This document shows positions 4,644-16,409 of a stretch of 64,000 nucleotides of DNA, in pieces (positions within the stretch are counted from its first letter, which is position 1; the number at the start of each line of letters is the position of its first letter). Source of the stretch: Chloroflexi bacterium HGW-Chloroflexi-2 (GTDB lineage Bacteria; Chloroflexota; Anaerolineae; Anaerolineales; Anaerolineaceae); the NCBI GenBank assembly GCA_002840735.1, contig PHBY01000007.1, positions 1 to 64,000 on the forward strand, read 5' to 3'. A program made the position numbers and the translations under genes. Under the pieces are notes generated by a model, which was not told the origin of the DNA, ran no database searches, and saw only the letters and a list, made by a program, of their open reading frames with translations.

Positions 4644-5714
4644 ATGTCATTTGATCCAACATATCCCCACGAATTAGCTCCCTTACCGCCGGCTGGAATT
4701 TCCAATTCGGACTTTTATGAATTGCTTCTGCCGGCAAGAGTAGCTTTGGCAGAACTAAAGGGGGCTTGTAGTGAAATGCCAAACCCGATGTTATTAATGG
4801 CACCCATTATGGTGCGTGAGTCAGTGGCCAGTTCTAATATTGAGAATATCAATACCACACTGGCTAATGTCTTACAGGGGCAACTCTTTCCGGAAGTTGA
4901 ACAACGACCGCCAGACAAGGAAGTATTAAGATATCGGGCTGCTATGAGTTGGGGGTTCGAAATATTGGATCAAATTCCAATTTCAACAAGAATGATCACC
5001 GGGATTCAATCAATTCTTATTCCTGAAGGCAATGGAAAATTTCGCCGGGAACAAAACCAGATTGCCAACCTGACCACGCTAAAACCCTTATACACACCTC
5101 CTCCTGCTCAGGATGTCAATAAATTAATCAATAATTGGGAAATTTTTGTAAATAACACTGATAATACGCTTGACCCATTAATTCGGGCAAGCATCGCTCA
5201 TTATCAGTTTGAGGCGATTCATCCATTCCGAGATGGAAATGGCAGAACAGGTAGAATTTTGATGATTTTGCAATTGATCCAATCCGGCCTGCTTGATTAT
5301 CCGGTTTTATATATCAGTAGTTTTATTAATGAGCATCGCAGTTTGTATTATGAATCGTTATTAAATGTAACCATTAAAAATGACTGGAAAGGTTACATAA
5401 ATTATTTGTTAAATGGATTTTTTACCCAGGCAAAAGCAACCAGAACTACATTGACACAAATCAATCATTTGTATAAGTTAATCAGAGACCAGGTAAAAAG
5501 AGAAAATAGCAAAATTTTTAGTCTTGAATTAATTGAAACCTTATTTTCCACGCCAATCCTAACACCTACGGTTCTGGCTGAAAAGATGGATATTCACTAT
5601 ACAACAGCCAGCAAACACTTAAAGTCGATGGAAGAAATGGGGATTCTGCGGGCAACATGGGTTGGAAAACACCATTTGTACGCAAATACACAATTATTGG
5701 AGTTATTGCAATAA
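4644..5714 (+). CDS. Fic-domain protein with N-terminal inhibitory motif and C-terminal winged helix
   Basis: Fic enzymes usually transfer AMP from ATP to hydroxyl side chains of target proteins. The 356-residue protein has a complete catalytic motif HPFRDGNGR (193-201). It also has the autoinhibitory motif S-x-x-x-E-N (SSNIEN, S63 to N68), placing it in the class with an N-terminal intramolecular inhibitor. The C-terminus (PTVLAEKMDIHYTTASKHL) looks like a winged-helix DNA-binding domain. AGGAG upstream supports the ATG at 4644. It sits between hsdS and hsdR on the same strand, 10 bp before hsdR, so it is probably co-transcribed with the restriction system. Its AT-rich composition matches hsdS rather than hsdR. 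Its target is unknown. Confidence 0.92.
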   Translation: MSFDPTYPHELAPLPPAGISNSDFYELLLPARVALAELKGACSEMPNPMLLMAPIMVRESVASSNIENINTTLANVLQGQLFPEVEQRPPDKEVLRYRAAMSWGFEILDQIPISTRMITGIQSILIPEGNGKFRREQNQIANLTTLKPLYTPPPAQDVNKLINNWEIFVNNTDNTLDPLIRASIAHYQFEAIHPFRDGNGRTGRILMILQLIQSGLLDYPVLYISSFINEHRSLYYESLLNVTIKNDWKGYINYLLNGFFTQAKATRTTLTQINHLYKLIRDQVKRENSKIFSLELIETLFSTPILTPTVLAEKMDIHYTTASKHLKSMEEMGILRATWVGKHHLYANTQLLELLQ

Positions 5715-5724
5715 GGGGGCACCC

Positions 5725-8046
5725 ATGAACGAAGCCGATACCAGAGCCGAACGAATCGAACCGCAGTTGCGTGCTGCGGGTTGGGGCATTGTGCCAGGCA
5801 GCCGTATCACCCGTGAATACCAGATCAACGCCGGGCGTATCATGGTCGGGCGTGGTCGCGAGAAACCACTGGTCGCCGATTATATCCTTGAGTACAACCG
5901 GCGCAAACTGGCGGTTATCGAAGCCAAAGCGGACGAGGTCTCGGTCGGGGAAGGCGTCGCCCAGGCCAAGAATTACGCCCAGAAGCTGCAGCTCACTTAC
6001 ACCTACGCCGCCAACGGCAAATCCATCTACCAGATCAACATGCAGACGGGTGCGGAAGGCGATGTGCTCAAATTCCCCTCCCCGCAGGAACTCTGGGATC
6101 TGACTTTCAGCCAGCAAAACGACTGGCTCGAGAAATTCAATCAGGTGCCCTATGAAGATGTGGGCGGCTCGAAAGAATTGCGCTACTATCAGGAGATCGC
6201 GGTCAACAAAGCCATGGCAGCCATCGCCGCGGACAAACAGCGCATCCTGCTGACGCTGGCAACCGGCACCGGCAAGACCTTCATCGCCTTCCAGATCGCC
6301 TGGAAGCTTTATCACACCCGCTGGAACCTGAAACGCGATGGCAAACGCCTGCCGCGCATCCTCTTCCTGGCGGATCGCAACATCCTGGCCGATCAGGCCT
6401 TCAACGCCTTCTCCGCCTTCCCCGAAGATGCCCTGGTGCGCATCCGTCCCAACCAGATCACCCGACTGGGACGCGTCCCCACCAACGGCAGCATCTTTTT
6501 CACCATCTTCCAGACTTTCATGAGCGGCGAGGAAGGCACCTACAACTTTGGCGAATATCCCGCAGATTTCTTTGACTTCATCGTGATTGATGAGTGTCAT
6601 CGCGGGGGTGCCAACGATGAATCCACCTGGCGGGAAATCATGCAGCATTTTTCCCCGGCTGTGCAGCTGGGATTGACCGCCACGCCGCGCCGCAGCGACA
6701 ACATCGACACCTACCGCTACTTCGGCGAGCCGGTGTATGTCTATTCGCTCAAAGATGGCATCAACGATGGCTTTCTGACGCCCTTCAAGGTCAAACGCAT
6801 TCAGACCACCCTGGATGACTACATCTACACTTCCGATGACCAGGTGCTGGAAGGTGAGATCGAATCCGGCCGCTTGTACAAAGAAGCCGATTTCAACCGC
6901 ATCATCGAGATCAAAGCCCGCGAGAAAAAACGGGTCGAGATCTTCCTGCAGGACATCAACCAGCGCGAGAAAAGCCTGGTCTTCTGCGCCTCGCAGGATC
7001 ATGCCCTGGCGGTGCGCGATCTGGTCAACCAGCTCAACAGCATCCGTAACCCGCATTACTGCGTGCGCGTGACCGCCAACGAAGGCGAGCTGGGTGAACA
7101 ATACCTGCGCGAATTTCAGGACAACGAGAAAACCATCCCCACCATCCTGACCACCTCGCACAAGCTTTCCACCGGTGTGGATGCCCGCAATGTACGCAAC
7201 ATCATCCTCATGCGTCCGATCCACTCCATGATCGAGTTCAAACAGATCATCGGGCGTGGCACGCGTCTGTATGAGGACAAACAATTCTTCACCATCTACG
7301 ACTTTGTGGGTGCCTACCACCACTTCAACGATCCGGAGTGGGATGGGGATCCCCTGCCGCCCGATGGCGACCCGAAAAAGCCCAGAGGTGGGATTAATGA
7401 GAAAGGCGCGGAATATGATGCCGGGGATGAGGATGAGCGCGAACTCCAACGGAAAAAGAGTATTGTGCGCGTAAGACTGGCAGACGGGAAAGAGCGCCAG
7501 ATCCAGCACATGCAGCAGACCTCGTTCTGGGATGCGGATGGCAAACCGATCTCGGTGGAAGAATTTCTGTATAAACTGTTTGGCGAGCTGCCAGCCTTCT
7601 TCCGCGATGAAGAAGAACTTCGCCGCATCTGGTCCAACCCGAATACGCGCCAGGCCTTTCTCGAGCGTCTGGCCAATGCCGGCTATGGCAAAGCCACCCT
7701 GGCCACCCTGCAAAACCTGATCGACGCCGAAAACAGCGACCTGTTCGACGTGCTCAAATACGTCGCCAATGCTGATCCGCCCATCCCGCGCGAAGTACGC
7801 GTCGCCCATTCCCAACCACGAATCTTCAAAACCCTCAACCCGCACGAAAAAAAATTCATCGAATTCGTGCTCTCACAATACATCAGCGACGGCGTGGAGG
7901 AACTCTCCGTCGAGAAACTGCCGGAGTTGTTGAAGCTCAAATACTTCACCCTGCCGGACGCCATCCGGATGCTGGGCAGTGTCGAAGGGATCAGGGAGTT
8001 GTTTATTGGGTTCCAGAAGGAGTTGTATGTGGGAAGGGGAGGGTGA
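5725..8046 (+). CDS. hsdR: Type I restriction endonuclease subunit (EcoEI-like)
   Basis: HsdR is the ATP-dependent translocase and nuclease of the type I complex. The 773-residue protein contains an N-terminal PD-(D/E)xK nuclease region (ADYILEYNRRKLAVIEAKAD, with E66 and K68). Its superfamily 2 helicase motor has Walker A ATGTGKT (179-185), DECH (289-292) and the GLTATPRR motif. A C-terminal EcoEI-type domain follows. I chose the ATG at 5725 because AAGGGGG precedes it. The open frame extends upstream but would overlap fic. The gene is GC-rich and matches the 5' part of hsdM. With hsdM and hsdS intact, the system looks functional. Confidence 0.95.
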   Translation: MNEADTRAERIEPQLRAAGWGIVPGSRITREYQINAGRIMVGRGREKPLVADYILEYNRRKLAVIEAKADEVSVGEGVAQAKNYAQKLQLTYTYAANGKSIYQINMQTGAEGDVLKFPSPQELWDLTFSQQNDWLEKFNQVPYEDVGGSKELRYYQEIAVNKAMAAIAADKQRILLTLATGTGKTFIAFQIAWKLYHTRWNLKRDGKRLPRILFLADRNILADQAFNAFSAFPEDALVRIRPNQITRLGRVPTNGSIFFTIFQTFMSGEEGTYNFGEYPADFFDFIVIDECHRGGANDESTWREIMQHFSPAVQLGLTATPRRSDNIDTYRYFGEPVYVYSLKDGINDGFLTPFKVKRIQTTLDDYIYTSDDQVLEGEIESGRLYKEADFNRIIEIKAREKKRVEIFLQDINQREKSLVFCASQDHALAVRDLVNQLNSIRNPHYCVRVTANEGELGEQYLREFQDNEKTIPTILTTSHKLSTGVDARNVRNIILMRPIHSMIEFKQIIGRGTRLYEDKQFFTIYDFVGAYHHFNDPEWDGDPLPPDGDPKKPRGGINEKGAEYDAGDEDERELQRKKSIVRVRLADGKERQIQHMQQTSFWDADGKPISVEEFLYKLFGELPAFFRDEEELRRIWSNPNTRQAFLERLANAGYGKATLATLQNLIDAENSDLFDVLKYVANADPPIPREVRVAHSQPRIFKTLNPHEKKFIEFVLSQYISDGVEELSVEKLPELLKLKYFTLPDAIRMLGSVEGIRELFIGFQKELYVGRGG

Positions 8047-8099: not shown

Positions 8100-8714
8100 T
8101 TAAATCAACCCTAATTCTGTAAATATTCGCAATCTGTCTAAGCAACTAGGACACTCCCAACAATGATGATCCGAATATCTGTTACAACAAAAAGTTTTTT
8201 CTGGCTCAAACCCAAGAAGTAAAGCATCTTTTACGACCTTATTTTTTGTTTCAGCTATGAAAGGTGTTAATATTTGTATAGCTGGATACTCAATTTTTAA
8301 CAATGCTTGAGCACGTTTAATATATTTTATAGAACAATCAGGTAAAGACTCAGCAGAATCTTTAATTAACCCAATTAATATATTTGAAGCATTAACTTTT
8401 TTTGCGTAAATTGCGGCTAAAATTAATAAGAAAAGATTTCGGCTTGGAAAATATTGATCGCTTAATAATTTTTCATCACTATCAACTAAACTACCTGATC
8501 CAATTGTAGCTAGTTTCGAAACATCAAAAGGTTCAATTTCCGGAAAATCAAATTTTTTTAAAAAATATTTGGTTGAACTCCATTCTCCTGGGAAAGGAAT
8601 TTGGCCATAATTTATATATAGAGGATAAATTTGAAAATTTCTTTTCTTTGCCCAATATAATAATGAGGTTGAATCCAATCCTCCTGATAATAAAATGACG
8701 CATCTATCGCTCAT
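8100..8714 (-). CDS. QueC-like 7-deazaguanine enzyme (Cap9-like)
   Basis: QueC converts 7-carboxy-7-deazaguanine to preQ0 using ATP. QueC paralogues in type IV CBASS (Cap9) have, as I recall, been reported to conjugate a deazaguanine to a partner protein N-terminus. The 204-residue protein has the PP-loop SGGLDSTS (10-17), the segment YFPSRNLFLL (88-97, equivalent to FVDGRNLLFL of QueC), PDC at 125-127, and zinc-type cysteines C176, C185, C188 and C191. Differences from housekeeping QueC include NYGQIP where NYNQRH is usual, and a somewhat shorter length. No queD, queE or queF neighbour is present. It is the last gene of a four-gene AT-rich operon, 8 bp after the kinase-NDT gene. Its position points to a defence or modification role rather than queuosine synthesis; this is inference. 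Confidence 0.85.
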   Translation of the reverse strand: MSDRCVILLSGGLDSTSLLYWAKKRNFQIYPLYINYGQIPFPGEWSSTKYFLKKFDFPEIEPFDVSKLATIGSGSLVDSDEKLLSDQYFPSRNLFLLILAAIYAKKVNASNILIGLIKDSAESLPDCSIKYIKRAQALLKIEYPAIQILTPFIAETKNKVVKDALLLGFEPEKTFCCNRYSDHHCWECPSCLDRLRIFTELGLI

Positions 8715-10769: not shown

Positions 10770-11117
10770 TTATGGTAATCCTATGACCATAACTTCAATC
10801 ATTGGTTTATTAATATCCTTAGATATCTCAATAATAGTTGCAGTATATTTCCAACCCATATTAATGCAATCAATTATATTATTAAAATGAGGAGGTAAAT
10901 AACCAATATTCCTTCCTTTATGCGAGAAAAGAATTGATGTGCCATTTTCTGAAATTGATACTTGGATTAATTCCCCTTTATCAATATTCATCGCATAATC
11001 CAAATTTCCTGTTTGAAAAATGTCTACTAATTTAGTCTCAAATTTTCTTGGACATCCTGCTCCGGCAGTTGAACCTATACCACTTCCAACAGGAAATGAA
11101 CCTTTAGAACCACCCAT
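10770..11117 (-). CDS. Small protein with Gly-rich N-terminus (MGGSKGS), first gene of QueC-like operon
   Basis: I do not recognise this 115-residue protein. Its first 22 residues are rich in Gly and Ser and start Met-Gly-Gly-Ser. Removal of the initiator Met would expose an N-terminal Gly. After CPRKF a compact domain follows (about 30-115). The stretch GRNIGYLPPHFNNIIDCINMG-W-KYTATI weakly resembles HIRAN-type beta-barrels, which is only an impression. A strong ribosome-binding site (GGAGGGA) and a good promoter lie upstream, so it would be the most highly expressed gene of the operon. Given a QueC-like enzyme three genes downstream, it is a plausible conjugation substrate; this is inference. 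Alternatives are a small regulatory or nucleic-acid-binding subunit. Confidence 0.8.
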   Translation of the reverse strand: MGGSKGSFPVGSGIGSTAGAGCPRKFETKLVDIFQTGNLDYAMNIDKGELIQVSISENGTSILFSHKGRNIGYLPPHFNNIIDCINMGWKYTATIIEISKDINKPMIEVMVIGLP

Positions 11118-11187
11118 TTATCCCTCCATTATTAAAATTAATTATTTCATTTATCATAATTACAGAGAAATTAATTTTACAAAACTG

Positions 11188-11329: not shown

Positions 11330-12033
11330 TTGATTACTAAAACCGAAATCTTTATTTTTGTTAACCACTGTAAAACCAATTTCAACCTGTCCACCACCCG
11401 CAATCCGAAGAGTACGGCATCCACAACCTGCCCCTGTGTATCATCGATGCGGTTTTCTCGATTGGCGTCCGCTACACCTTCACTGAGAATGCAGTCAAAC
11501 GCTTCTGCGAGCATTTCGGCATCACCCGGCTGCGTGAAAAAGAACTGGCTCCACAATCCGAACAACTTTCCGTATCCTCATTTATCCAAATTCATCAAGG
11601 CTTCACCTTTCAGGAAATGGCGGAAAAGATCTACCAGAACAAATAACGCACCTCCACCCGCAACGGCATCCTGAAGGCTGAAGCTGCTTACTTGTTTGCT
11701 GGTGTTGTATAGAAATTTGGTATCGAGTACCTGCAGGATGTCCATAAAATTTTGGGGAATGAGAAATTTGAAGCGGAGATCGCCAGGATCCCCGGGCAGT
11801 CCAGCGGATTATCCACCCGCTATTTCTACATGCTGGCTGGCGATGAGAACTTCATCAAGCCCGATCGTATGATCCGCAGGTTCATCCAGGCGGCCATCGG
11901 CCGGGAGTTGAGCATCGAGGATTGCCAGGAGCTGCTGCTCGCCGCGCACGCTGAGCTGGTGAGAGACTATCCTCTGCTGACTCCACGCAGTCTGGATCAT
12001 GAGATCTGGCTTTATCAGAGACAAGCACCGTAA
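11330..12033 (+). pseudogene. Decayed HhH-GPD-like gene, block A
   Basis: The remains encode a protein of about 220 residues. They start ITKTEIFIFVNHCK, then after a frameshift near 11400 read EYGIHNLPLCIIDAVFSIGVRYTF, and finish LDHEIWLYQRQAP. Two in-frame stops interrupt it: AAATAA near 11643 and GTATAG near 11708. Block B has CAA and GTGCAAAGA at the corresponding places. The segment IPGQSSGLSTRYFYMLAG followed by FIKPDRMIRRF looks like a helix-hairpin-helix/GPD domain, so the ancestor probably bound DNA or was glycosylase-like. Its last 35 codons are the source of the cassettes repeated in the array that follows. The stop codon TAA is part of the head of the first REPIN. Confidence 0.75.
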
Positions 12034-13391
12034 GGGTAAAGCATTTAACCCGCTTGCCTGCACACGATTTCCAAATGCTAAAATTATTCTGATCACACAA
12101 TTGATTCCTCACAAAAAGTCAAATGCTTTACCCATACACCAAGCCTACCCTCCACCAGGAACCGAGGAAGTATGATGTCAGGCACTGCTGCTCGCCGCAC
12201 ACACCGAGCTGGTCAGAGACTACCCTCTGCTGACACCGCGCAGTCTGGATCATGAGATCTGGCTGTGGCAGAGACAGGCCCCGTAAGGGTAAAGCATTTA
12301 ACCCGCTTGCCTGCACACGATTTCCAAATGCTAAAATTATTCTGATCACACAATTAATTTCTCACAAAAAGTCAAATGCTTTACCCATACACCAAGCCTC
12401 CCCTCCACCAGGAACTGAGGAAGCATGATGTCAGGTACTGCTCCTCGCCGCACACACCGAGCTGGTGAGAGACTACCCCCAGCTCACCCCCCGCAGCCTG
12501 GATCATCAGATCTGGCTGTATCAGCGGGTCGCGTAAGGGTAAAGCATTTGACCCGCTTGCCTGCAAAGGTTTTCCAATACGAAAATAATTCTGATCACAC
12601 AATTGATTCCTCACAAAAAGTCAAATGCTTTACCCATACACCAAGCCTACCCTCCACCAGGGACCGAGGAAGTACGATGTCAGGCACTGCTGCTCGCCGC
12701 ACACACCGAACTGGTGAGAAACTACCCCCTCCTGACACCGCGCAGTCTGGACCATCAGATCTGGGTGTGGCAGAGACAGCCCCCGTAAGGGTAAAGCATT
12801 TGACCCGCTTGCCTGCAATCGATTTCCAATGCTAAAATTATTCTGATCACACGATTAATTCCTCACAAAAAGTCAAATGCTTTACCCATACACCAAGCCT
12901 ACCCTCCACCTGGAACTGAGGAAGCATGATGTCAGGCACTGCTGACCGCCGCACAAACCGAGCTGGTCAGAGACTACCCTCTGCTGACGCCCCGCAGTCT
13001 GGATCAACAGATCTGGGTGTATCAGAGACAGCCCCCGTAAGGGTAAAGCATTTAACCCGCTTGCCTGCAAACGATTTCCATTGCTAAAATTATTCTGATC
13101 ACACAATTGATTCCTCACGAAAAGTCAAATGCTTTACCCATACACCAAGCCTACCCTCCACCACGAACTGAGGAAGTATGATGTCAGGCACTTCTGCTCA
13201 CCGCACACACCGAACTGGTCAGAGACTACCCCCAGCTCACCCCCCGCAGTCTGGATCAACAGATCTGGCTGTGGCAGAGACAGGCCCCGAAAGGGTAAAG
13301 CATTTGACCCGCTTGCCTGCAAACGATTTCCAATGCAACAATTAAGCTGACATCTCGAATTTTTCTGCTAGCGAAATCAAATGCTTTACCC
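12034..13391 (+). repeat. REPIN-cassette tandem array A (six REPINs, five cassettes)
   Basis: REPINs of 99-100 bp lie at 12034-12133, 12287-12386, 12537-12635, 12789-12887, 13041-13139 and 13293-13391, spaced 250-253 bp apart. Each starts GGGTAAAGCATTT(G/A)ACCC, an imperfect palindrome, and ends with the inverted partner TCAAATGCTTTACCC. Between them are five 150-153-bp cassettes that repeat the 3' end of the HhH-like gene, encoding variants of CQALLLAAHTELVRDYPLLT-PRSLD followed by a C-terminal IW...QRQ segment. Four cassettes end in TAA, supplied by the next REP head; in the last the stop has changed to AAA. Most cassettes carry TGA just before CQ, so they are not independent genes. Confidence 0.9.
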
Positions 13392-13634: not shown

Positions 13635-14129
13635 TCAACCCGAATAAAGTGTGTGGATAGCTTTGCGTGCCTGATTGACAACACGGTCAGAAATCCAAAG
13701 TGATGAATTTATTAGAGCATTTAACGCATCCATTGCCTCGTTTTCACTTTCGATGTGCCCAACTGCTGCTGCCCAAAGCAGTAAACCAATTGAACCATGA
13801 ATCTCCAATCCCACAGACTCACCAAATTGTCTGGCGATCGCATCATCAGTCAACAACCAATCTGCTTCCATCTGCATGGTTAGTGCAATGGCAGCTGCTT
13901 CACCTTCATCAATCTGTTTCCTCCACTCAAGCACTGTTTTCTGATATTGTTCGTCCAGTTCTTTGATGGTAACCCATTCAGGCAATTTGATATCGGAGGT
14001 ATTCCGTTTGAATTCTTCTGCCACAACAAACGGAATAATTATTTCTCCTGCCATTTGCAATAGATGGATAATATTTGCTTCACCAAGATGTAGTAAAGGG
14101 CCAGTATCGCATACGACGATGCGTATCAT
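13635..14129 (-). CDS. PIN-domain toxin (VapC-like, DUF3368-type)
   Basis: The 164-residue protein starts MIRIVVCDTGPLLHLGEANIIHLL, with the first PIN acidic residue at D8. It continues with the further acidic motif residues in IDEGEAAAIAL and ADWLLTDDAIARQF, typical of PIN-domain RNases of the DUF3368 group. It probably cleaves RNA and is held in check by the AbrB-type protein encoded immediately upstream, which it overlaps by 4 bp (ATGA). The pair lies between the two copies of the REPIN block. Confidence 0.87.
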   Translation of the reverse strand: MIRIVVCDTGPLLHLGEANIIHLLQMAGEIIIPFVVAEEFKRNTSDIKLPEWVTIKELDEQYQKTVLEWRKQIDEGEAAAIALTMQMEADWLLTDDAIARQFGESVGLEIHGSIGLLLWAAAVGHIESENEAMDALNALINSSLWISDRVVNQARKAIHTLYSG

Positions 14130-14347
14130 GCTTTTTTATCTTTCTGTTTTAGTGCCCAGTCTATATCTTCAAGCTGGAATTTTTCAGCCAAAGAACGATC
14201 CAGTGCCAGTTTTGGAACCAAGCGGATGGTACCGTCCGTATCAACGATGGCTTCAAGTAAATCACCCTCAGCTATTTTCGCTTTACGACGGGTTGGAGCA
14301 GGTAAGGTTATTTGTCCGTTGCTTCGGACCTGTAAATATTCAGGCAT
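14126..14347 (-). CDS. AbrB/SpoVT-family antitoxin
   Basis: The 73-residue protein begins MPEYLQVRSNGQITLPAPTR, the swapped-hairpin AbrB fold seen in VapB/MazE-type antitoxins, and ends with a charged tail that could wrap the toxin. I chose the ATG at 14347 because AGAGG precedes it and because family members start here. The longer frame from 14428 adds an unrelated stretch. It is the first gene of the pair and probably autoregulates its promoter. Confidence 0.87.
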   Translation of the reverse strand: MPEYLQVRSNGQITLPAPTRRKAKIAEGDLLEAIVDTDGTIRLVPKLALDRSLAEKFQLEDIDWALKQKDKKA

Positions 14348-14480
14348 GAGTACCTCTTTTTCTAATATTCTGATATTCTGAATAATTGATTTCTCATAAA
14401 TTATAAATTTTTGGAACCTCTTTGTCAAGAATCATAGGGGGATTCAAAAATCACAATTTCATACTTCCAGGTGCAAGATC

Positions 14481-14969
14481 ATGATTACTAAAACAGAAAT
14501 CCAAACCTTTGTAATCTTTTGCAAATCCAAACTAAAACTCACCGCTCTCGTCCAGAGAAAAGTTTGGTTACCACAATCTACCTTGTGCATCATTGACGCG
14601 GTATTCTCGATCGGCGTTCCCTACACCTCCACCGAGAATACCGTTAACCACTTCTGCGAGCAATTCAGTGACAACCCGGCTGCGTGAAAAAGAACTGGCT
14701 CCTCAATCCGCACAACTTTCCGTGTCCACATTTATCCAATTTCATCAATACTTCACCTTTCAAGAGATGGCGGAAAAGATTTACCAGAACAAACAACGCA
14801 CCTCCACCCGCAACGGCATCTTGAAAGCGGAAGCCGCTTACTTGTTTGCCGGTGTGGTGCAAAGATACGGTGTCGAGTACCTGCAGGATGTCAATAAAAT
14901 TTTGGGGAATGAGAATTTTGAAGCTGATATCGCCAGAATCCCGGGGCAGGGAAGCGGAGACTCAGGTAA
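14481..14969 (+). pseudogene. Decayed HhH-GPD-like gene, block B (interrupted by a REPIN)
   Basis: This is the second copy of the gene at 11330, with an ATG start (MITKTEIQTFVIFCKSKLKL). A one-base frameshift near 14680 separates the 5' part (LCIIDAVFSIGVPYTSTENT) from the rest (TRLREKELAPQSAQLSVSTF onward). The reading is intact across the positions where block A has stops (NKQRTSTRNG, GVVQRYGVEYL). It ends at IPGQGSGDSG, where REPIN sequence begins, so the KPDRMI half of the HhH domain and the original C-terminus are missing. Three C-terminal cassettes follow downstream. Confidence 0.75.
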
Positions 14970-15824
14970 GGGTAAAGTATTTGACCTGCTTGCCTGCAAT
15001 CGATTTCCATTGCTAAAATTATTCTGATCACACAATTGATTCCTCACAATAAGTCAAATGCTTTACCCATACACCAAGCCTACCCCCCACCAGGAACCGA
15101 GGAAGTATGATGTCAGGCACTGCTGCTCGCCGCGCACGCCGAGCTGGTGAGAGACTATCCTCTGCTCATCCCCCGCAGTCTGGATCAACAGATCTGGCTG
15201 TGGCAGAGACAGCCCCCGTAAGGGTAAAGCATTTGACCCGCTTGCCTGCAAACGATTTCCAATGCTAAAATAATTCTGACTTCTGAAATATTTCTGCATA
15301 CAAAGTCAAATGCTTTACCCATACCCAGACACCACCCTCCACCAGGAACCGAGGAAGTATGATGTCAGGCACTCCTGCTCCCCGCGCACGCCGAGCTGGT
15401 GAGAGACTACCCCCTCCTGACACCGCGCAGTCTGGACCATCAGATCTGGGTGTATCAGAGACAGCCCCCGTAAGGGTAAAGCATTTGACCCGCTTTCCTG
15501 CAATCGATTTCCATTGCTAAAATTATTCTGATCACACAATTGATTCCTCACAAAAAGTCAAATGCTTTACCCATACACCAAGCCTACCCTCCACCAGGAA
15601 CTGAGGAAGCATGATGTCAGGCACTCCTGCTCGCCGCACACGCCGAGCTGGTCAGAGACTACTCCCAGCTCACCCCCCGCAGTCTGGATCAACAGATCTG
15701 GCTGTGGCAGAGACAGTCCCCGTAAGGGTAAAGCATTTGACCCGCTTGCCTGCAATCGATTTCCAATGCTAAAATAATTCTGACCACACAATTGATTCCT
15801 CACAAAAAGTCAAATGCTTTACCC
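14970..15824 (+). repeat. REPIN-cassette tandem array B (four REPINs, three cassettes)
   Basis: REPINs at 14970-15068, 15222-15320, 15474-15572 and 15726-15824 are all 99 bp and exactly 252 bp apart. The cassettes between them (15069-15221, 15321-15473, 15573-15725) encode CQALLLAAHAELVRDYPLLI and close variants ending IWLWQRQ(P/S)P plus a TAA contributed by the following REP. Differences between cassettes are mostly single substitutions that keep the frame. The last REPIN ends 33 bp before the transposase start codon. Confidence 0.9.
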
Positions 15825-15857
15825 ATACCCAGACACCACCCCCCACCGGAGCACAGC

Positions 15858-16409
15858 ATGTCATACAACCCAGCCATCCACAACCGCCATTCCATCCGCC
15901 TGCCATGGTACGACTACAGCCAGGCTGGTGCATACTCTCTGACCATCCTCACACACAAAAAACAACACCTGTTTGGTGAAGTTGTTGGTGGTGTGGTGGA
16001 ACTGTCACCGGCTGGGGAGATTGTTCAGAAGGAATGGCTAAGAATCCCCAGACACTTCACGAATGTCGTCCTGGATGCGTTCGTGATCATGCCCAACCAT
16101 GTGCATGGGATCGTGGTGATCATAGAGGGAGGGGTCCATACGGGGTCTACTACCTCCCAGTCTCACGCCCAGTCCGAGTCACTCACCACACCCACACGAC
16201 TGGGGAGCCAACCCGGCTCTCTCCCGGCGATCGTCCAGAACTTCAAGTCAATCAGCTCTCGAAAGATCAACAACCTGCTCAAGTCTCCCGGGTCGACCAT
16301 CTGGCATCGCAACTATTACGAGCATATCATCCGGGACGAGGCAGACTTCGAACGAGTTGTCACGTACATCCAGCAGAATCCATTAAAGTGGGAAGATCCC
16401 CACAGGTAA
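15858..16409 (+). CDS. REP-associated tyrosine transposase (RAYT, Y1-HUH family)
   Basis: RAYTs are IS200/IS605-like single-strand nucleases that recognise REP hairpins and are thought to disperse them. The 183-residue protein has the HUH motif in FVIMPNHVHGIVVI (His81, His83), the helix NYYEHIIRDEADFERVVTYI carrying the candidate catalytic Tyr (154 or 155), and the family ending IQQNPLKW. I chose the ATG at 15858; the open frame upstream is REPIN sequence. The gene is bracketed by REPINs at 15726-15824 and 16410-16512, and its TAA stop lies in the GTAAGGG head of the downstream REP. This is the usual RAYT arrangement. An intact frame suggests it may be active. Confidence 0.92.
   Translation: MSYNPAIHNRHSIRLPWYDYSQAGAYSLTILTHKKQHLFGEVVGGVVELSPAGEIVQKEWLRIPRHFTNVVLDAFVIMPNHVHGIVVIIEGGVHTGSTTSQSHAQSESLTTPTRLGSQPGSLPAIVQNFKSISSRKINNLLKSPGSTIWHRNYYEHIIRDEADFERVVTYIQQNPLKWEDPHR

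Follow-up and report, generated by a model that had tools for sequence, protein, structure and literature searches.

A small protein encoded at the head of a four-gene operon of Chloroflexi bacterium HGW-Chloroflexi-2 is probably the acceptor of a QueC-family protein ligase, with 7-carboxy-7-deazaguanine (CDG) as the most likely base, and would act in defence together with a fusion of a PfkB-type kinase and a nucleoside 2-deoxyribosyltransferase (PfkB-NDT) and an Ogg-type DNA glycosylase. The operon lies in the first 64,000 nucleotides of contig PHBY01000007.1, the whole stretch of DNA that was analysed, hereafter the window. The argument for this reading rests on the conserved start of the small protein, on the residues kept by the QueC-like enzyme and on similar N-termini of unrelated proteins encoded beside other QueC genes.

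The four genes form a tight minus-strand run (11117-8100), in which two junctions are gaps of 9 and 8 bp and the third is a 23-bp overlap, headed by the gene of the small protein, as the earlier note had stated (Table 1). The Ogg-type protein aligns with archaeal N-glycosylase/DNA lyases across its GYK and LDIH stretches, and we take the Lys of the former and the Asp of the latter to be the catalytic residues; the PADLOC OGG model did not match it. In the PfkB-NDT fusion, G236, G238, D239 and E388 are invariant among 15 aligned proteins, and the Asp of the PfkB GxGD motif and the NDT Glu are among these residues.

The G+C content of the run (~30%) is below that of its immediate flanks, a restriction gene at 54–57% and, on the other side, a repeat stretch at ~50%, which suggests that the operon arrived recently. 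A Fic gene further away from the run is also low in G+C (35–38%). Beside the run, PADLOC matched a SoFic-like Fic protein (1e-102) and a type I restriction enzyme (9.4e-133); both are encoded at 4644-8046 on the plus strand, as a defence-gene cluster convergent with the operon. The window further contains a 252-bp tandem repeat in two arrays (11932-13344, 5.6 copies; 14966-15847, 3.5 copies), a pair of PIN-type and AbrB-type genes on the minus strand (13635-14428) that reads by eye as a toxin-antitoxin module, and a plus-strand gene (15792-16409) that by eye is REP-associated transposase-like.

Table 1 The QueC-like operon in the window and its features.
Feature	Position	Strand	Basis or place
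Small protein, 115 aa: Gly/Ser tail and predicted HIRAN-type domain; proposed QueC acceptor	10770..11117	-	First gene of the run
N-terminal tail, residues 1-22, MGGSKGSFPVGSGIGSTAGAGC	11052..11117	-	Translation; pLDDT; homologue starts
Predicted HIRAN-type domain, residues 22-115	10773..11054	-	pLDDT blocks >90; structural alignment
Shine-Dalgarno-like GGAGGG	11122..11127	-	Four bases before ATG
Ogg/HhH-type DNA glycosylase-lyase, 241 aa	10035..10760	-	PF22175, 1.7e-20, over cut-off
PfkB-type kinase fused to nucleoside 2-deoxyribosyltransferase (NDT), 444 aa	8723..10057	-	PF00294, 1.3e-16; PF05014, 1.6e-11
QueC-like ATP-dependent ligase, 204 aa; proposed writer of the N-terminal modification	8100..8714	-	PF06508, 1.9e-38

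The N-terminus of the small protein is secure, since an in-frame TAA (11120-11118) directly precedes its ATG and the GGAGGG stretch stands just upstream. With the start fixed in this way, translation of 11117-11052 agrees with the MGGSKGS start and the 22-residue tail described earlier, and the AlphaFold2 model (61 sequences) bears out the description of a flexible tail followed by a compact domain: the mean pLDDT is 58 for residues 1–10 and 47 for residues 11–20, and exceeds 90 in every later block. For the part beyond the tail, a HIRAN-type fold is predicted. VIA-align of the domain model gave Z scores of 13.7 to 3k2y, 10.0 to the HIRAN domain of HLTF and 8.9 to Rad5, at low identity to the matched solved HIRAN-type structures (8–11%), and the model also matched viral proteins named HIRAN. 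Unlike the HIRAN domains of HLTF and Rad5, to which it is 8–9% identical, the domain in the window stands alone behind a tail and not on a helicase. In HLTF, the HIRAN domain binds DNA ends, in agreement with PDB titles. None of 75 members of the small-protein family matched the Pfam HIRAN profile at E up to 0.1, no Pfam family was matched by more than two of the 75 at the same threshold, and the small-protein profile found just two matches among PDB sequences, both at E 0.17. Two cysteines, C22 and C84 (first codon bases at 11054 and 10868), are invariant in the 75 aligned members.

Searches with PfkB-NDT (the protein or its alignments), in which loci with a PfkB-NDT match above 290 bits were kept, yielded 111 loci including the window, some of them near copies and two (L009 and L077) the same record. 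A homologue of the small protein lies beside PfkB-NDT in 110 of them: directly upstream in 109, as assigned by script, and in the window, where the order differs in that the Ogg gene sits between the two. A QueC-like gene is next to PfkB-NDT in 107 loci; among the four loci without a scripted QueC, L092 and L093 stop at or near a contig edge, and L111 and L126 carry QueC in an overlapping long frame that the script left unpaired. An Ogg or related HhH gene is found nearby in 93 loci (81 Ogg, 12 HhH). The sole locus without the small protein, L136, has PfkB and QueC reading frames that look shortened and is probably a decayed copy. The hosts include Pseudomonadota, Bacteroidota, Balneolota, Spirochaetota and Campylobacterota, as well as a cyanobacterial plasmid and haloarchaeal plasmids. 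Loci matched only through a generic PfkB or NDT domain (L032-L038 and L042-L060, the latter only ~2.2–3.4 kb each) gave no small-protein or QueC match and were rejected.

Closer to the window, 396 genomes of its class contained no nearer relative of its lineage than itself (E up to 1e-25), and viral contigs searched with the window QueC gave no closer relative. Against 301 genomes of the phylum, the small protein matched itself and, weakly (E 0.0027), part of a longer protein (L002:1147-1977), in which a middle part resembling the small-protein domain by eye follows a repeat-like, different N-terminal part. The DNA of the Proteus operon was unmatched in complete E. coli genomes, and five matches in phage records were confined to the kinase part.

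Fourteen loci (L025, L070, L091, L097, L100, L104, L109, L112, L113, L116-L119 and L126) carry two small-protein/PfkB-NDT pairs and one QueC. All seven second PfkB-NDT copies that were aligned have degraded NDT motifs, and the sequences suggest that the two copies may form an active/inactive pair. In two haloarchaeal small proteins (L006:3931-4566 and L007:3391-4479), both starting with MGGG, the C-terminal domain appears by eye to be duplicated, and the one at L007 has a very long acidic tail. One gene family follows next after QueC in 49 of the 111 loci (e.g. L015:6312-6989) and is nitroreductase-like: the three members scanned all match the nitroreductase profile, although one match falls short of the cut-off. 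At single loci, the genes annotated nearby encode TIR proteins, an anti-phage dGTPase, an Mrr-type endonuclease or a multiubiquitin/ThiF pair, and it is from such single-locus neighbours that we infer a role of the operon in defence.

To compare N-termini, we assigned start codons by a motif-blind rule (Shine-Dalgarno score, then ATG, then length). Under this rule, 93 of 109 distinct small proteins begin with M[GSTA][GS]. At the same loci, the rule gave such a start for 3 of 109 PfkB-NDT, 2 of 94 QueC, 1 of 70 Ogg and 0 of 13 other HhH proteins, and for 28 of 508 control neighbouring ORFs of at least 150 aa. For the stricter pattern M[GS][GS][GST], the counts were 78 of 109 small proteins versus 3 of 508 control ORFs; as in all of these motif counts, the small proteins are related by descent and are not independent events. 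The blind rule left 16 small proteins without the motif; in 15 of these it is present at another start codon, whereas L075 has no start codon that gives it.

The Gly/Ser content is 0.65–0.89 at residues 2–7, 0.30 and 0.26 at residues 8 and 9, and 0.39 inside the tail. With motif-guided starts, all 28 small proteins of the 14 two-pair loci can be read as beginning M[SG][GS], including some whose tails are otherwise not Gly-rich (MGGYAPDQIKK, MSGMNPLKPKP). The drop in Gly/Ser after residue 7, together with the Gly-poor tails that keep the motif, thus indicates that the extreme N-terminus itself, and not only a linker, appears to be under selection.

The second residue varies among the homologues. 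Their alignment had been proposed earlier as a check on whether Gly2 is invariant; among the 93 loci with a readable pair (motif-guided starts), Ser is the commonest second residue (67), ahead of Gly (22), Thr (3) and Ala (1), and the third residue is Gly in 78 cases and Ser in 15. The commoner Ser2 rules out Gly2 as an invariant acceptor. Homologues that lack the N-terminal Gly, which the earlier note had named as a refutation, are thus the majority, although all four residues found at position 2 (Gly, Ser, Thr and Ala) are small ones ahead of which Met is normally removed. Its removal ahead of small residues is likewise stated in passages of PMC13279940. Gly2 occurs with Asp-Cys QueC lineages in 14 of 14 cases (window included) and with Asp-Gly lineages in 8 of 79, an association that is confounded by descent.

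The last gene of the run, which the earlier note had called QueC-like, is confirmed as such by its Pfam match (Table 1) and by its best structural matches. The window model aligned with Cap9 (from the Cap9-CdnD-NDG complex) with Z 21.6 and an rmsd of 1.9 Å over 177 aligned residues, B. subtilis QueC was tied with it (Z 21.3) and QatC came next (Z 15.9). In a tree of 39 QueC proteins, whose support is weak (86/75 and below), the window enzyme sits on a long branch nearest to types B and C, then Cap9, and apart from type A. In a set of 95 distinct QueC-like proteins, the Asp that corresponds to Cap9 D117 is present throughout, the YxQ...E motif, the Arg of the RN motif and the zinc cysteines show at most one exception each, and the Asn of RN is Thr in 15. 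At the place of Cap9 Y115, 75 of the enzymes have His, 15 Glu, two Tyr and two Phe; the window enzyme alone has Leu there, and it retains SGGLDS, YGQ...E, RN, the Asp and four Cys. In Cap9, Y115 stacks on the base and D117 reads its Watson-Crick edge, as described in part of PMC13279940.

Comparable N-termini are encoded beside QueC genes of other genetic contexts. On a Pseudanabaena plasmid, QueC is accompanied by a type IV CBASS cyclase (SMODS, 9e-11) that begins MGGSGGGFFSNSD, its MGGSGGGFFS being close to the MGGSKGSF of the window. The same plasmid encodes a protein that shares 26% identity, across roughly half of its own length, with the TGT-like part of a rhizobial protein; an OGG was not recognised among the part of the neighbours scanned at this locus. 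A plasmid variant in rhizobia (L148:2637-7048, L149:5995-10359, L150:5995-10395 and L151:5995-10389), found in Rhizobium etli, two Agrobacterium strains and Neorhizobium, comprises genes for a PfkB protein, a TIR-TGT fusion, an Ogg, a QueC and a second TIR protein, and has the appearance of another QueC-tag defence system. Both rhizobial PfkB proteins aligned have degraded NDT motifs, and the TGT match of the one TIR-TGT fusion scanned lies just under the Pfam cut-off. The second TIR protein starts MGGGSSGSWS, MGGGGGGDGNWN or MGGGGGGNWN. QatB begins MGTS, and a G2D change in it abolishes defence, according to passages of PMC13279940. Like N-termini on proteins of the CD-NTase, QatB, TIR and HIRAN types therefore suggest that the tag follows QueC across folds. 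The earlier note had put the small protein in the place of the CD-NTase as N-terminal acceptor: the recurrence of the motif beside QueC and the retention of most Cap9/QueC catalytic residues speak for that placement, and the conjugation itself is what we infer.

We propose the following course of events. Removal of Met would leave the free N-terminal amine of the disordered tail (that of Gly2 in the window) to enter the QueC-like active site, where a carboxylated purine-like base, most likely CDG, would be activated with ATP and amide-linked to the N-terminus, in the way in which Cap9 modifies the CD-NTase. So tagged, the HIRAN-type domain would then probably act in defence with PfkB-NDT and the Ogg-type glycosylase. 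PfkB-NDT, standing in place of the TGT-like Cap10, would read or process the base; it is the best candidate for such a role by its place in the operon and because the glycosidic nitrogen of bases is the site at which NDT enzymes act. That some N-terminal conjugation occurs is, in our estimate, quite likely; on the base being a 7-deazaguanine our judgement is evenly divided. A more elaborate and decidedly doubtful version would have QueC put a deazaguanine on a DNA-end-binding HIRAN protein, NDT add 2-deoxyribose and PfkB phosphorylate it, giving a protein-linked deoxynucleotide that Ogg could later cut; in hosts without a CDG pathway, the base would come from phages that make 7-deazaguanine, and the tag would report infection.

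The source of the base was addressed through the CDG pathway genes of the hosts. In the window genome (99.87% complete), the QueD family is absent, as is a canonical QueC, the one further PF06508 match covering 61 of 210 positions with 23 bits (cut-off 22). One QueE profile gave two partial, weak matches there (25 and 20 bits), and two TGT-family proteins are present. Among 50 other hosts (50 of 80 loci), some of whose genomes are drafts or MAGs, 8 have no QueD match, 13 no canonical QueC over the cut-off and 4 neither. These four hosts also have no match to the QueE profile, which matched in all five comparison hosts, although this single profile misses some QueE types and exceeded its cut-off in one of 14 control genomes. 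A canonical QueC over the cut-off is present in four hosts that have no QueD match, so a missing QueD match need not mean a missing pathway. Given the window and the four of 50 hosts without QueD or canonical QueC, the 7-deazaguanine donor is uncertain. From this gene content, host-made CDG looks unlikely as the donor in every host; either a base other than CDG is used, or CDG is supplied from outside to the hosts that lack the pathway genes. Phages carrying folE, queD and queE are known (PMC10002423, in part). The deazaguanine named in the earlier note is the weaker part of its reading: the gene content of the host genome and the Leu in place of the stacking Tyr speak against it.

These observations bear on a rival account, in which QueC does modify the N-terminus, but the base or carboxylate that it attaches is not host CDG; PfkB-NDT might, for instance, make or salvage it. 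The window genome, with neither QueD nor canonical QueC and with only weak QueE matches, and the four hosts without all three genes agree with it, as does the replacement of the Cap9 stacking Tyr by His, Glu or Leu in 91 of 95 enzymes; QatC, which has Thr/Thr at the base-reading places, has in addition been suggested to bind another substrate (in part of PMC13279940). We nevertheless consider it rather unlikely, as all 95 enzymes retain the Asp for reading a guanine-type Watson-Crick edge, a QueD-family protein is present in 42 of the 50 other hosts, the four QueD-less hosts mentioned above have a canonical QueC, and CDG might come from outside or from phage.

A different and improbable possibility is that the operon is a purine or 7-deazapurine salvage pathway, with the small protein as a DNA-binding regulator or scaffold whose tail only docks. 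The PfkB-NDT-linked QueC enzymes are Cluster 4 of a survey that, in the parts of its text concerned with them, assigns them, and with them most loci of the kind described here, to purine salvage (PMC13329287), and the invariance of the PfkB GxGD Asp and the NDT Glu in the 15 aligned proteins is consistent with that assignment. Salvage does not explain, however, why conservation within a variable tail is highest at the extreme N-terminus, nor why like N-termini occur on TIR and CD-NTase proteins beside QueC; moreover, the partner keeps its tag where NDT motifs are degraded, as in the two rhizobial PfkB proteins and seven second copies that were aligned. The remaining reading, of the Gly/Ser tail as a neutral low-complexity linker with an incidental MG start, could draw on the Gly/Ser share inside the tail and on starts shared by descent among related sequences. 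It is very improbable, and a simple Gly-rich linker was rejected on the control ORF counts and the Gly/Ser profile: the motif is far commoner among small proteins than among neighbouring ORFs, the Gly/Ser content falls sharply after residue 7, and Gly-poor tails keep their first two residues.

Seen as an N-terminally tagged acceptor with its ligase, the operon resembles type IV CBASS in having a QueC-like ligase, a partner with a flexible MGGS-type N-terminus and a nucleobase enzyme in the same operon. Most catalytic residues of the ligase are Cap9-like, but Leu stands at the Y115 place and its structural matches to Cap9 and B. subtilis QueC are tied. If Cap11 of type IV CBASS is an OGG, an OGG-type gene is also common to the two. 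The window operon differs in that none of its four proteins matches a nucleotidyltransferase family and there is no CD-NTase, that the partner is a protein of predicted HIRAN fold with Ser as residue 2 in most relatives, and that the PfkB-NDT fusion replaces the TGT-like Cap10. A TGT family match was not obtained for any of the four operon proteins in a search of low sensitivity, in which the Pfam model also missed a Cap10-like protein.

With qatABCD, the operon shares a QueC-family enzyme and a partner of unrelated fold with a disordered tail and Gly after Met, a Gly that is essential in QatB (PMC13279940, in part). The window enzyme differs from QatC in its length, which leaves no room for the N- and C-terminal extensions of QatC, and in having Leu/Asp at the base-pocket places where QatC has Thr/Thr; its partner is HIRAN-like and not helical. 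KAP ATPase and TatD had no match among the four operon proteins. A QueC with an N-terminally tagged partner is known from type IV CBASS (in part of PMC11996544), and for qatABCD such a partner is a proposal (in part of PMC13279940).

The window operon has the PfkB-NDT neighbour of Cluster 4, as this cluster is described in part of PMC13329287, and type A loci carry by eye the CH(x)5CxxCxGCxK signature of the cluster. The window QueC, on its long branch outside the type A clade, lacks this signature and has CCNRYSDHHCWECPSCLDR instead. The main text of the survey does not contain the word 'glycosylase', and the small acceptor protein is unnamed in the parts that deal with the cluster. Neither 'QueC' nor 'PfkB' is a term used in the main text of the DefensePredictor paper. 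The open set of PubMed Central gave no paper that brings HIRAN and QueC together, and a largely open-access literature, bioRxiv aside, yielded no description of the small acceptor, of its Ogg link or of the TIR variant.

If the small protein is indeed tagged by its QueC-like partner, N-terminal nucleobase tagging would extend beyond CBASS and Qat. One QueC-type writer would then serve varied tagged proteins (CD-NTase, QatB, HIRAN and TIR types) and varied base enzymes (TGT and NDT), and the systems would be spread over Pseudomonadota, Bacteroidota, other phyla and haloarchaea. A QueC cluster that ranks among the ten largest and is now placed under purine salvage would be re-assigned. The hosts without a detected CDG pathway, finally, make the question of which base a QueC-type enzyme uses, a question shared with QatC, directly approachable.
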